This document shows positions 3,724 through 8,080 of a stretch of 64,000 bases of DNA, one piece after another. Within the stretch, counting starts at the first letter, position 1. Each line of letters begins with the position of its first letter. Source of the stretch: Sphingobium boeckii (lineage in GTDB: Bacteria > Pseudomonadota > Alphaproteobacteria > Sphingomonadales > Sphingomonadaceae); the NCBI RefSeq assembly GCF_014199215.1, contig NZ_JACIJC010000006.1:62001-126000 (forward strand). Direction: 5' to 3'. The translations under genes were made by a program, and so were the position numbers. The notes beneath the pieces were generated by a model. The model was not told where the DNA came from. It ran no database searches and saw nothing but the letters and a program-made list of their open reading frames with translations.

Positions 3724-4218
3724 TCAGGACTTGCGCAGCCCGGCCACCACGTCGCGCTCACTCTCGGGAATCAGCCCTTCCAGCACCTGCCAGAAACCGG
3801 CGACCGATCCCTGACCCGCCTGCGCATAAGCCGCGGAAACCTTTTCGCGCAGGGATTCGAACAGCCGCGCTTCCAGGGCGCTGCCTTCCGCGGTCAGCCG
3901 CAACAGCCTTTGCCGCCGGTCGCTCGTGCCCGTGCGTTGCTCCACCAGCGCGCGGCCGGCAAGATCATTGAGCACGCGACCAAGCGACTGCTTGGTGATC
4001 GCCAGTAGCCGGAGCAATTCGCTCACCGTGAGATCGGGCTGGCGCGCGATGAAATACAGGGCGCGGTGATGCGCGCGGCCAAGCCCCTGCACCGAAAGCT
4101 CGTCGTCGATCGCGCGGGTCATGTGGCTATAGCCGAAATAGAGCAGCTCCACGCCGCGGCGGATTTCGGGTTCGCGCAGGAAAAGCGGCGACGCGCTGCT
4201 GGACGTTGGGACAGCCAT
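3724..4218 (-). CDS. MarR-family transcriptional regulator, PetP-like
   Basis: A 164-residue winged-helix regulator. The block LGRAHHRALYFIARQPDLTV, the recognition-helix region LLAITKQSLGRVLNDL and the wing sequence TGTSDRRQRLLRLT match the PetP type of MarR proteins from alphaproteobacteria. Ligand and targets are unknown. It diverges from ilvE with 59 bases between the starts, so it may control itself and ilvE; that is inference from position. The ATG at 4218 was chosen over a GTG at 4260 because it leaves room for promoters and starts near the conserved FLREPEIRRG block. Confidence 0.85.
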   Translation of the reverse strand: MAVPTSSSASPLFLREPEIRRGVELLYFGYSHMTRAIDDELSVQGLGRAHHRALYFIARQPDLTVSELLRLLAITKQSLGRVLNDLAGRALVEQRTGTSDRRQRLLRLTAEGSALEARLFESLREKVSAAYAQAGQGSVAGFWQVLEGLIPESERDVVAGLRKS

Positions 4219-4219
4219 A

Positions 4220-4255
4220 TTGACGTATCTAGCCTTGCGTCCTAGTCCAGCGCAA
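4220..4255. promoter_or_regulatory. Overlapping divergent promoter candidates between the MarR gene and ilvE
   Basis: Toward ilvE: TTGACG (4220-4225), a 17-base spacer, then a weak -10 TAGTCC (4243-4248). Toward the MarR gene: TTGCGC (bases 4255-4250), an 18-base spacer, then TAGATA (4231-4226). The two overlap almost completely in a 59-base gap, which would let one bound repressor affect both directions. These are matches by eye only. Confidence 0.35.
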
Positions 4256-4277
4256 CCCACAGAAAGAGGGACATAGC

Positions 4278-5375
4278 ATGTCTTCCGGCGCCCTGCCCGT
4301 TTTTACATTCGAACCCAATACCGCGCCCGTCGCTGCTGAAGAGCGCGCGCAGCGGCTGATCGGTCCGGCCTTCGGCCGCGTGTTCACCGATCATATGGCG
4401 GTGATCCGCTATAGCGAAGACAAGGGCTGGCACGATGCGCGGATCACCGCACGCGGTTCGGTGCAGATGGATCCCGCCTCTTCCGTGCTGCATTATGCGC
4501 AGGAGATTTTCGAAGGCCTGAAGGCCTATAGCCGGCCCGATGGCGGCGCGGCACTGTTTCGCCCGGATGCCAACGCGCGGCGCTTCAATGCGTCTGCACG
4601 CCGCATGGCAATGCCGGAATTGCCCGAAGCGCTTTTCCTGGAATCGATCCGCGCTTTGGTGCGCACCGACGCCGCCTGGATCCCGCAGGATGAGGATGGC
4701 GCGCTCTATCTTCGCCCCTTCATGTTCGCGAGCGAAGTGTTCCTCGGCGTGAAGCCCTCGGCCGAATATCTCTACATGGTGATCGCATCCTCGGTCGGCG
4801 CCTATTTCAAGGGCGGTGCGCCCAGCGTGTCGCTGTGGGTGACGCGCGAATATACCCGCGCCGCGCCGGGCGGCACCGGAGCCGCCAAATGCGGCGGCAA
4901 TTACGCCACCAGCCTGATTGCGCAGGCGGAAGCGATCCGCAACGGCTGCGATCAGGTGGTGTTCCTTGATGCGGTGGAGCGTCGCTATGTCGAGGAATTG
5001 GGCGGCATGAACATCTTCTTCGTGTTCGAAGATGGGTCTATGCTCACCCCGCCGCTCACCGGCACGATCCTGCCCGGCATCACCCGCGATTCGATCCTGA
5101 CGCTCGCGCGCGATCTGGGGATCACTGTGCGCGAGGAACTCTATTCGCTCGAACAGTGGCGCGCCGATGCGGAAAGCGGCAGGCTCACCGAGGCTTTCGC
5201 CTGCGGCACGGCCGCGGTGGTCACCCCGATCGGCAGCGTGAAGAGCGCCGAGGGCGGCTTCACGATCGGCGGCCAGTCCGCCGGGCCGCTCACGCAGCGG
5301 ATCCGTTCATCGCTGGTCGATATCCAGCGCGGCAAGGCGGCGGATCCCTATGGCTGGATTCAACAGATACTGTGA
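4278..5375 (+). CDS. ilvE: Branched-chain amino acid aminotransferase
   Basis: A 365-residue fold-type IV PLP enzyme that interconverts leucine, isoleucine and valine with their 2-oxo acids. The PLP-binding lysine is K204 in the motif KCGGNYATSL. Other family blocks are MDPASSVLHYAQEIFEGLKA near the N-terminus, ELGGMNIFFVFEDG, and the C-terminal GTAAVVTPIGSV. The length fits the long form of BCAT (about 355-370 residues). The ATG at 4278 follows AAAGAGGG at good spacing. It is divergent from a PetP-like MarR gene and followed by a GC-rich hairpin that probably ends the transcript. Confidence 0.95.
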   Translation: MSSGALPVFTFEPNTAPVAAEERAQRLIGPAFGRVFTDHMAVIRYSEDKGWHDARITARGSVQMDPASSVLHYAQEIFEGLKAYSRPDGGAALFRPDANARRFNASARRMAMPELPEALFLESIRALVRTDAAWIPQDEDGALYLRPFMFASEVFLGVKPSAEYLYMVIASSVGAYFKGGAPSVSLWVTREYTRAAPGGTGAAKCGGNYATSLIAQAEAIRNGCDQVVFLDAVERRYVEELGGMNIFFVFEDGSMLTPPLTGTILPGITRDSILTLARDLGITVREELYSLEQWRADAESGRLTEAFACGTAAVVTPIGSVKSAEGGFTIGGQSAGPLTQRIRSSLVDIQRGKAADPYGWIQQIL

Positions 5376-5381
5376 AAAAGC

Positions 5382-5416
5382 GGGGATGGCACCGGTTCGT
5401 CGCCATCCCCCCTTTC
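5382..5416 (+). terminator. Probable terminator after ilvE
   Basis: A perfect 9-base stem, GGGGATGGC (5382-5390) pairing with GCCATCCCC (5402-5410), with an 11-base loop, lies 6 bases after the ilvE stop. The downstream tract is CCTTTCC rather than a run of T, so the strength is uncertain. Confidence 0.55.
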
Positions 5417-5458
5417 CACCGGCGTTTGCCCCGCTATAAGGCGCGGCGCGCATCCTGC

Positions 5459-5533
5459 TGGGGCGTCGCCAAGCGGTAAGGCAGCGGCTTTTGATGCCGC
5501 CATGCGCAGGTTCGAATCCTGCCGCCCCAGCCA
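5459..5533 (+). tRNA. tRNA-Gln (anticodon TTG)
   Basis: The cloverleaf can be folded by hand. The acceptor arm TGGGGCG (5459-5465) pairs with CGCCCCA (5523-5529). The anticodon stem GCGGC/GCCGC encloses the loop TTTTGAT with anticodon TTG, reading CAA. The T arm is GCAGG-TTCGAAT-CCTGC. The discriminator G and an encoded CCA end the gene at 5533. A TATAAG box at 5435-5440 lies 18 bases upstream and may be its -10 element. The gene marks the left edge of the lower-GC restriction-modification insert. Confidence 0.95.
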
Positions 5534-5726
5534 GTCAGTTAAACGCTTATAAATCAAAGTTATATCTCCTGTCTGTCATTGTGTGAATCTGTTCCCTAAA
5601 ACGGGAATTGGCGGGAGCGAGCCATTTCAATTGCTAATCACGACCCGCTTTGTAACCAGTCAGTTGACGGCGTTTTGTCATTATCTTAAGAGAAGAACAT
5701 AAGAGGAACGAAAGGGCTAACTATCG

Positions 5727-6887
5727 ATGCCGCAGTTCTACGAGTTCTTTGCTGGCGGCGGGATGGCGCAAGCTGGTCTCGGCCATCATTGGGCGTGCCG
5801 ATTCGCCAATGACTTCGATGAGATGAAGGCCGCGACTTATTGCGCCAACTGGGGCGGCGAACATATGGTCTGCGGGGACGTGAACGATATTAAGCCGGGA
5901 GATGTGCCGGAATTGGCGGATCTCGCCTGGGCATCGTTCCCTTGCCAAGACCTGTCGTTGGCAGGAAATTATGCGGGGATTGGCGCGGCTGATTCAGGTA
6001 GTCAAACACGCTCAGGTGCTTTTTGGGCGTTTTGGAAGCTGATGCTCGGCCTAAAAGCCGATGGCCGCGCGCCCAATATGATTGTGTTGGAGAACGTGTC
6101 CGGCGTCCTCACAGCCAATAAAGGACGCGACTTCGCCGCTATTGGGGATTGCATCGCGCGCGCCGGATACAGATTCGGTGCCGTGCTGATCGATGCCATA
6201 CACTTCGTGCCTCACTCCCGCCCGAGGGTATTTATCGTCGCGATCAGGGCCGATCTTACGATCCCCGACGACATCCTTACGGCGTCTCCGATCTTGCCTT
6301 GGCACCCCGGCCCACTCGTGGCGGCGTTTGGAGGCATGACCGACAGTGCGAAAGATGCTTGGCTGTGGCTGAATCTCCCTACGCCTGACATTCAACGGAG
6401 AAGGAAGCTAGAGTCCATCATTGATGATAATCCAGAGGGACTTCGGTGGCATACATCTTCAGAGACGGATCGTCTTATTTCGATGATGAGTGAGCGGAAT
6501 CTCGGCAAGCTCGAAAGGATGAAGAGCCGCGGCCAAAGGACGATTGGCACAATTTACAAGCGAACCCGCCAGGGTCAGCAGCGGGCAGAGCTTCGGGATG
6601 ACGGCATCTCCGGATGTCTGCGCACTCCCGCAGGAGGTTCGTCACGGCAACTTATCCTCGTGGTCGATGGCGAACGGGTCCGTTCCCGGCTGCTCGCGCC
6701 CAGAGAGGCTGCGCGGCTTATGGGGTTGCCAGATCAATATAAACTGCCGAGCAATTATAATCACGCTTACCACGTCGCGGGAGACGGGGTTGCCGTTCCT
6801 GTCGTGCGGCATCTGGCTGCATTCATCTTGGAGCCGGTGCTGCAGATGCAGGCCATCACTCGTCAATACGCCGTTGCGGCGGAATAG
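5727..6887 (+). CDS. DNA (cytosine-5) methyltransferase, M.Eco29kI-like
   Basis: A 386-residue C5 methyltransferase with all core motifs in order. Motif I is FAGGGMAQAGL (8-18, AdoMet binding). Motif IV is FPCQDLSLAG with catalytic C73. Motif VI is ENV, motif VIII is RPRVFIVAIR, motif IX is REAARLMGLP, and motif X is near GDGVAVPVVRHLA at the end. The target-recognition region lies between VIII and IX. Size and the neighbouring Eco29kI-type GIY-YIG frame suggest an Eco29kI-like system, whose known site is CCGCGG; the site used here is inference. The gene looks intact, and the nuclease frame begins three bases after its stop. Confidence 0.92.
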   Translation: MPQFYEFFAGGGMAQAGLGHHWACRFANDFDEMKAATYCANWGGEHMVCGDVNDIKPGDVPELADLAWASFPCQDLSLAGNYAGIGAADSGSQTRSGAFWAFWKLMLGLKADGRAPNMIVLENVSGVLTANKGRDFAAIGDCIARAGYRFGAVLIDAIHFVPHSRPRVFIVAIRADLTIPDDILTASPILPWHPGPLVAAFGGMTDSAKDAWLWLNLPTPDIQRRRKLESIIDDNPEGLRWHTSSETDRLISMMSERNLGKLERMKSRGQRTIGTIYKRTRQGQQRAELRDDGISGCLRTPAGGSSRQLILVVDGERVRSRLLAPREAARLMGLPDQYKLPSNYNHAYHVAGDGVAVPVVRHLAAFILEPVLQMQAITRQYAVAAE

Positions 6888-6890
6888 ACG

Positions 6891-7733
6891 GTGAATGAAT
6901 CCGATGATGGGCAAAGCGATATGCTTGCTGCTCTATCGCTTGGAGTGGCCTCGGCTGAAATGCTACTCGATACCCGCGACCCACCTTTTGACACTACAGA
7001 ACTTCGTCGTGGTCTGAAGGCATTCTTCGCGCGGCCCCTGTCTGAGTGACCTGAGCTCTTTCCCGATCCACCTTTAACGGACGGTAAAAAGCCGGCGGTT
7101 GCATCCTTAGGCTCGGTCAAGTGGGGCGTTTACGCGTTCGTAGATTATGACGGAGAGCCAATCTATGTCGGTCAAACTCGCGAGAGTCTGTCGGGTCGCG
7201 TGGGAAGGCATCTGACTAATCAGCGTACTGACGCGGTCGCGATGTCGGTTCTTGATCCTTATGAAGTGAAACAGATCAGGGTTTGGCCGCTTCTCCAATA
7301 CCAGAAGATCATAAAGAAGGATGACCCTCAAGGCTGGGAGGATGCCGTGGTGCATCTCAATAGTCTCGAGCGCCATGTATTTGAGATACTGGTGGAAAAA
7401 AGCCGGTTCAACGCTATCCTCAATGAGAAGAACCCCCCGCCGGCCCAGCCGTGCGAGGTGCCGCCAGTGATCGATCAACCTCCAATTATCACCGGCGAAG
7501 TCGCGAGGCTCCGATCTCATCCAGACACCCGGATTGCGCGGCGTGCTATGGTGATATCGAGGTTGGCGCAGGTCATTGCAGAGCGAGAACTTCGCACTCC
7601 GGGCTTGCGTCGGACGCTTGCTACTCAGGCGGTCCGCCTTCAATGGCTCGCAGCCGAGCGCTTTAAGGCACTGGGCGGTGAGCGTCTCGTCGAAACGCGC
7701 GCAAAGAATGAGGGTGACGACGCGAGCGCTTAG
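6891..7733 (+). pseudogene. Eco29kI-like GIY-YIG restriction endonuclease, broken by an in-frame TGA
   Basis: One continuous reading frame runs from the GTG at 6891 to 7733 except for a single TGA at 7047-7049 (codon 53). After the TGA come the GIY-YIG hallmarks: GVYAF with Y81, YVGQT with Y92, and R103-V-G-R-H107, then SLERHVFE and FNAILN. The spacing of Y, Y, R and H resembles the catalytic set recalled for Eco29kI. No ATG, GTG or TTG occurs in frame between the TGA and codon 104 (GTG at 7200), which is already past most of the active site, so a shorter active protein from a normal start is not possible. Either the gene is dead, the stop is read through, or the base is a sequencing error. 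Confidence 0.75.
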
Positions 7734-7864
7734 CGTCGGCAGCATCGTGCGCTTTAGCCTACTTCCGCTGCCGCTTCAGGATATGAACCGGCGCGAGTAT
7801 TTTTGGTCGGTTTGCGGCGTTTGACTCTGGAATCGGCGGGCGTGGTGGTTCATGATGCGGCGGC

Positions 7865-8080
7865 ATGATGGAGAGTGTGAGCGTGAGTGACGAACCCGGA
7901 CTGGACGAAGCCGACCATGAGGAAGATGGCGCGGAAGCGCTGAAGCTGGCCAAGGAGGCCGCTGCGGCCAAGGCGCGGCTCTACAAGAATGTGGGCATCG
8001 GCATGGGCGTCGGGGTGGGATCGGCCGCATTGGTCGCCGCCTTGCTCTATGCGAACCGCGGCAAACCCAAGGGCGAATAA
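7865..8080 (+). CDS. Small acidic membrane-anchored protein, function unknown
   Basis: A 71-residue protein. An acidic N-terminal part (DEPGLDEADHEEDGAE) and an alanine/lysine helix are followed by one membrane segment near residues 43-64 (VGIGMGVGVGSAALVAALLY) and a short basic tail. No family was recognised. The GC-rich base use is like that of the chromosome, so it lies outside the insert. The start may be ATG 7865, ATG 7868 or GTG 7883; the GGAGAG at 7870 would suit the GTG. Confidence 0.6.
   Translation: MMESVSVSDEPGLDEADHEEDGAEALKLAKEAAAAKARLYKNVGIGMGVGVGSAALVAALLYANRGKPKGE

Follow-up and report, generated by a model that had tools for sequence, protein, structure and literature searches.

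Does the nuclease gene that follows an intact DNA methyltransferase gene in Sphingobium boeckii, open from end to end but for one TGA, belong to a restriction-modification (R-M) pair whose nuclease has been lost, or is this stop read through, avoided by a later start or simply an error in the sequence? The question arises in the window, that is, the whole stretch of 64,000 nucleotides analysed here, to which all positions refer. Nuclease loss beside a kept methyltransferase is an already described kind of event. In the excerpted text of PMC6471742, decaying R-M systems are expected to lose the nuclease before the methyltransferase, a lone nuclease being one that would cut its host, and several orphan methyltransferases are said to adjoin degraded nuclease genes (Seshasayee et al., as cited there). 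According to the excerpt of PMC4752239, 48% of organisms had active type II methyltransferases for which no nuclease was apparent. From work by Oliveira et al., the same part of PMC6471742 also reports that the change from an R-M system to an orphan methyltransferase is infrequent, and that orphans more often come on mobile elements than by R-M decay, a result that counts against a decay reading here. The pair in the window resembles the orphans found near degraded restriction genes in PMC6471742, as far as they are described in that excerpt, in that its methyltransferase is intact and the nuclease beside it disrupted, and differs from them in that its nuclease carries one stop and is otherwise undecayed.

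A nuclease frame interrupted at one codon

The nuclease frame runs on the forward strand from GTG 6891 to the final TAG at 7731-7733, a total of 281 positions made up of 280 codons, the internal TGA included, and the terminal stop (Table 1). A previous sequence-only reading had described this frame as open except for the TGA at 7047-7049, and translation bore this out: it is the sole in-frame stop ahead of the terminal one, standing at codon 53 behind 52 residues. The segments on both sides of it are not two chance open frames, because a single tblastn alignment crosses the stop, with 68% identity to residues 28-282 of a 282-residue Qipengyuania protein. The same reading had placed Y81, Y92, R103 and H107 after the stop and found no ordinary start codon before GTG 7200, past most of these residues, and both points agree with our alignment and start-codon listing. 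GTG 7200 is the first in-frame ATG, GTG or TTG located 3′ of the TGA, beyond Y81, Y92 and R103 and still ahead of H107. When the listing is widened to every table-11 start, the first one in frame behind the TGA is ATC 7161, already beyond Y81, and between the TGA and Y81 the window nuclease holds no in-frame ATG, GTG, TTG, CTG, ATT, ATC or ATA. The whole loss claim hangs on one codon, the TGA at 7047-7049.

Table 1. Features of the R-M locus and its left border, in window coordinates
Feature	Position	Strand	Evidence
tRNA-Gln (TTG), left border of the insert	5459..5533	+	ARAGORN; Rfam RF00005, 62.9 bits
DNA cytosine-5 methyltransferase, 386 aa, intact	5727..6887	+	ORF; PF00145; TIGR00675 dcm
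N-terminal nuclease fragment, 52 codons, motif PF-D/E-T..LR..L	6891..7046	+	translation; motif alignment
In-frame TGA interrupting the nuclease	7047..7049	+	translation; aligned sense codon in Qipengyuania mesophila L001
GIY-YIG catalytic core and C-terminal helical part, 227 codons and stop	7050..7733	+	PF01541; start-codon list; invariant residues

Family and predicted fold of the nuclease

The part of the nuclease encoded 3′ of the TGA matches the general GIY-YIG model PF01541 with 25.5 bits (cut-off 22.6; hmmscan against Pfam-A). The Eco29kI family (PF09517), proposed in the sequence-only reading, did not hold, as this model had no match to the core in hmmscan against Pfam-A at E <= 1, and the family label given earlier is hereby corrected. 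A search of the own genome with PF09517 gave no match, and its 14 controls likewise gave none, so that the absence of this family rests on hmmscan. Profiles from NCBIfam and PADLOC were tried and provided no useful name for the nuclease. Among solved structures, phmmer returned no match, and a profile search returned four chance-level matches (best E 0.33), none of them relevant in the PDB.

Membership in the superfamily is supported by profile, residue order and fold. In an alignment of 19 rows, which includes the window and leaves out L009 and the broken L020, the residues Y81, Y92, R103, H107, E160 and N178 are invariant (19/19), forming a set in the order Tyr, Tyr, Arg, His, Glu, Asn. Their catalytic roles are assigned by analogy with R.Eco29kI, a type IIP enzyme for CCGCGG whose catalytic residues are given in the excerpt of PMC1952068 as Y49, Y76, R104, H108, E142 and N154. 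Both proteins share the GIY-YIG superfamily and this order of residues, and differ in that the window nuclease is unmatched by PF09517.

The read-through protein (translated with code 4) was modelled with AlphaFold2 from the alignment of 19, and the model reached a mean pLDDT of 82.6. Its best matches with VIA-align were GIY-YIG domains of UvrC (Z 6.0-7.0, rmsd 2.6-2.7, alignment spanning 89-93 of 89-94 residues), compared with Z 3.8 and rmsd 4.8-5.3 over 110-112 residues for the Eco29kI chains (3nic, 3mx4) and Z 3.1 for the top row of ferritin type, all of these values lying below the Z of 8 under which a match can reflect a common arrangement. Foldseek alone found no match for the model at E <= 0.001.

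The adjacent methyltransferase

As the sequence-only reading had stated, the neighbouring methyltransferase is intact: its ORF of 386 residues is uninterrupted, and the nuclease frame starts three bases on. The protein matches PF00145 with 146.9 bits and TIGR00675 (dcm) with 145.7 bits, above the cut-off. PADLOC names it DruM (Druantia, PDLC00028) on a profile match of 527 bits. Eight aligned members of the family show a mean column identity of 64%. The own genome contains no second nuclease copy, no second match to this methyltransferase and no other match to PF00145; a search of it for Vsr gave no match either. As judged from its sequence, the gene would class as a solitary C5 methyltransferase, intact and without an intact cognate nuclease.

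Relatives of the pair

A scan of genome contigs yielded 20 nuclease loci, and three overlapping genome sets gave matches in 5/148, 10/396 and 9/385 genomes, the own genome being counted each time. A match was present in 14 plasmids, and none was found in the viral contigs or in four genomes of the same genus. The nearest relative of the window pair is that of Qipengyuania mesophila YG27 (L001), which keeps the same gene order and orientation and is 70% identical in the nuclease core and 64% in the methyltransferase. It differs in that its frame is continuous at the place of the TGA, where it has a Trp codon.

The comparison was extended to 34 loci, the window included. Left out of this number were duplicates by coordinates (L021 and L052, equal to the window; L026, equal to L001; L027, equal to L002; L034, equal to L015) and matches that were weak or of the short subfamily (L024, L025, L029-L031 and L036-L039). 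The plasmid matches H1, H3, H4, H5, H8, H10 and H12 are among the 34, with H2 entered as L022, and H6, H7, H9, H11, H13 and H14 are outside. A methyltransferase match accompanies the nuclease in all of them (34/34, from tblastn and the stretches of the loci). It is not directly adjacent, or lies on the opposite strand, in a few cases such as L013, L016 and L062, is fragmentary in L058 and frameshifted in L003, and runs off the end of the analysed stretch in L006, L022, L028 and L057. On this comparison, the pair classes as a type II R-M system by its closely placed, co-inherited genes.

The nuclease frame is intact in 28 of these loci and broken in five (the window, L020, L057, L058 and L059), with one that could not be called (L018, at a contig end). 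L007 was scored as intact from the frame check, its tblastn row beginning in a segment ahead of the ORF. A broken nuclease next to an intact methyltransferase occurs in 4/34 loci, as seen by tblastn for the window, L020 and L059 and by annotation for L057, and both genes are broken in L058. Part of the broken frames outside the window may be sequencing errors.

Two of the loci show other states of the pair. In Tepidimonas (L020, 3101-3514), an in-frame deletion has removed most of the catalytic core beside an intact methyltransferase, another way to the same outcome. A short draft contig of Sphingomonas sp. Ant H11 (L003, 929-2042) is the only locus with a frameshifted methyltransferase and an intact nuclease, a state that would be harmful if both genes are truly so and that is perhaps an error of the draft contig.

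Genomic setting

The tRNA-Gln gene marks the left border of a segment of low G+C content (0.559 for 5536-7733, against 0.643 before and 0.630 after it). The codon-usage scores of the two genes of the pair are close to zero (-0.04 and -0.01), under the threshold of 0.25 (17 window genes). DNA similarity to genomes of the same genus stops at 5533-5535, the end of the tRNA-Gln, in 4/4 cases, and when 67 kb of one of these genomes were compared with the window, only 3752-5535 aligned. In one of the four genomes, G004, the next large ORF at this place encodes a phage-type integrase (PF22022, PF13356, PF00589). From these sequences, the place at the tRNA-Gln looks like a variable slot in the genus. 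The slot (window 5533-5536; L053-L056) follows a gene for a branched-chain aminotransferase.

The window was searched for another copy of the tRNA 3′ end, allowing three mismatches at most, and none was found. A search of 5400-7900 against Rfam at E <= 1 matched the tRNA-Gln alone, and a scan for promoters and terminators found 3 and 4, respectively, where shuffles gave 1.5 and 2.3 on average.

Age of the interruption

Relative rates in the nuclease core are balanced. The changes unique to the window and to Qipengyuania were, for six outgroups, 17/15, 7/12, 10/5, 8/6, 8/9 and 8/9, with a largest chi-square of 1.67. The corresponding counts in the methyltransferase were 31/14, 17/24, 32/21, 21/26, 18/18 and 30/21, and one of the six outgroups reached a chi-square of 6.42. 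With these outgroups, there is no sign of an excess of amino-acid change in the nuclease core since the stop, and because of this the interruption looks recent, as far as the sequences can tell. Balanced rates fit equally a gene that is still functional by readthrough, or a sequencing error. Synonymous sites are saturated with respect to the nearest relative (proportion 0.867), and therefore the window branch does not lend itself to dating by dN/dS.

Explanations for the internal stop

The alternative that leaves nothing broken places the start of a functional nuclease 3′ of the TGA, and we regard it as extremely unlikely. It may draw on L024, whose GIY-YIG nuclease belongs to another subfamily found next to this methyltransferase family and can start some 19 residues ahead of its GVY motif, and on some close relatives that also have later starts (for instance L008, at ATG 4995). 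Against it stands the lack of any table-11 start in frame from the TGA to Y81, together with the segment 5′ of the TGA, which carries the motif PFETxELRxxL: its R39 is invariant in 19/19 rows, and the region 33-47 is a confident helix in the AlphaFold2 model. That this motif is conserved suggests that the proteins of the relatives start 5′ of it, which speaks against homologues starting beyond the stop, one of the two refutations that the sequence-only reading had set itself. An ATG, GTG or TTG exists ahead of the aligned TGA place in 20/20 loci of the contig scan; in L009, a locus with unread bases, the sole one falls within the motif. A sequencing or assembly error has more in its favour and is still unlikely. 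It would restore a sense codon at 7047-7049, and with it an intact and working R-M pair, and it fits well with the intact state of the remaining frame and of the catalytic residues and with a core free of excess change. The quality of the assembly speaks against it (14 contigs, 99.93% complete, 0.14% contaminated), as does the scarcity of other same-frame interruptions in the window, which number two, both at the ends of complete long ORFs, in a survey made weak by a codon-usage threshold that the nuclease itself would fail. Loss of the nuclease is, moreover, not rare, being seen in 4/33 other loci, some of them perhaps errors too.

The remaining possibility, which appears very improbable, is occasional decoding of the UGA by near-cognate tRNA-Trp, giving a small amount of full-length nuclease and a pair that goes on restricting; the same slight chance is given to the TGA being a tolerated dosage valve, with UGA-C read by tRNA-Trp, which would insert the same residue as in the nearest relative, to give a trickle of full-length nuclease. 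The base after the TGA is indeed C, and in the excerpt of PMC5289835 UGA-C is a poor termination context in bacteria and UGA the stop most often read through; the Trp of the nearest relative at this place and the conserved frame beyond it point the same way. However, none of the 18 other aligned proteins has a stop at the aligned place, the excerpted text of PMC5289835 ties misreading by tRNA-Trp in E. coli to a following A and not C, and the predicted RNA fold at the TGA is no more stable than those of shuffled sequences (z 0.59). Levels of UGA readthrough also vary widely in the excerpt of PMC9481147: an E. coli reporter reached about 12%, two species of Pseudomonas 0.08% and 0.04%. Among the papers listed, titles and abstract openings describe no readthrough of a restriction nuclease gene. 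Insertion of selenocysteine was considered and discarded, as no tRNA-Sec was found and the only match above the Rfam cut-off is a tRNA-Ser according to ARAGORN. If the valve were real, restriction would persist at a level safer for the host, and a UGA truly read through would teach something new on how bacteria limit the dose of a nuclease; otherwise it would not.

Altogether, it is highly probable that a type II R-M pair arrived here by horizontal transfer and then had its nuclease abolished by a recent nonsense substitution. A C5 methyltransferase gene followed by a GIY-YIG nuclease gene would have been gained horizontally beside the tRNA-Gln, and a recent substitution would then have created the stop at codon 53 of the nuclease. 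Deamination of a methylated cytosine is one conceivable source of this change; the genome, as noted, gave no match to Vsr. Provided that the sequence is correct and that readthrough gives nothing useful, translation would end after a peptide of 52 residues, and reinitiation at table-11 starts would at best give products missing at least one catalytic tyrosine. The nuclease would be inactive because reinitiation cannot restore all the catalytic residues, leaving a methyltransferase that presumably works alone. Judged by its sequence, the pair would be classed as decayed, the nuclease frame being interrupted at codon 53. That an R-M pair is losing its nuclease, the central proposal of the sequence-only reading, is supported by the intact frames of 28/34 loci, the motif 5′ of the stop, the intact methyltransferase and the lack of second copies. 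The two exceptions that this reading had itself named, a sequencing error and readthrough of the TGA, gained no positive support. The locus would be one more case of such a loss, and a clean early stage of an R-M pair turning into a solitary methyltransferase.

Other neighbours of the methyltransferase family

In the order, members of the methyltransferase family (E <= 1e-60) occur in 18/396 genomes (L052, L079-L095). Within 1.5 kb of the gene, the GIY-YIG family of the window stands in 5/18, the shorter GIY-YIG subfamily in 3/18 and no GIY-YIG in 10/18. In a profile scan of seven ORFs, these last ten included L080, with a Vsr (PF03852), L093, with a GHKL-type ATPase (PF13589), and L082, with a weak DEAD match under the cut-off. 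Among the plasmid relatives, Vsr is annotated near the pair in four of seven (L057, L058, L059 and L061), one of the seven being unannotated, and such a neighbour is expected because the methyltransferase is of the C5 type.
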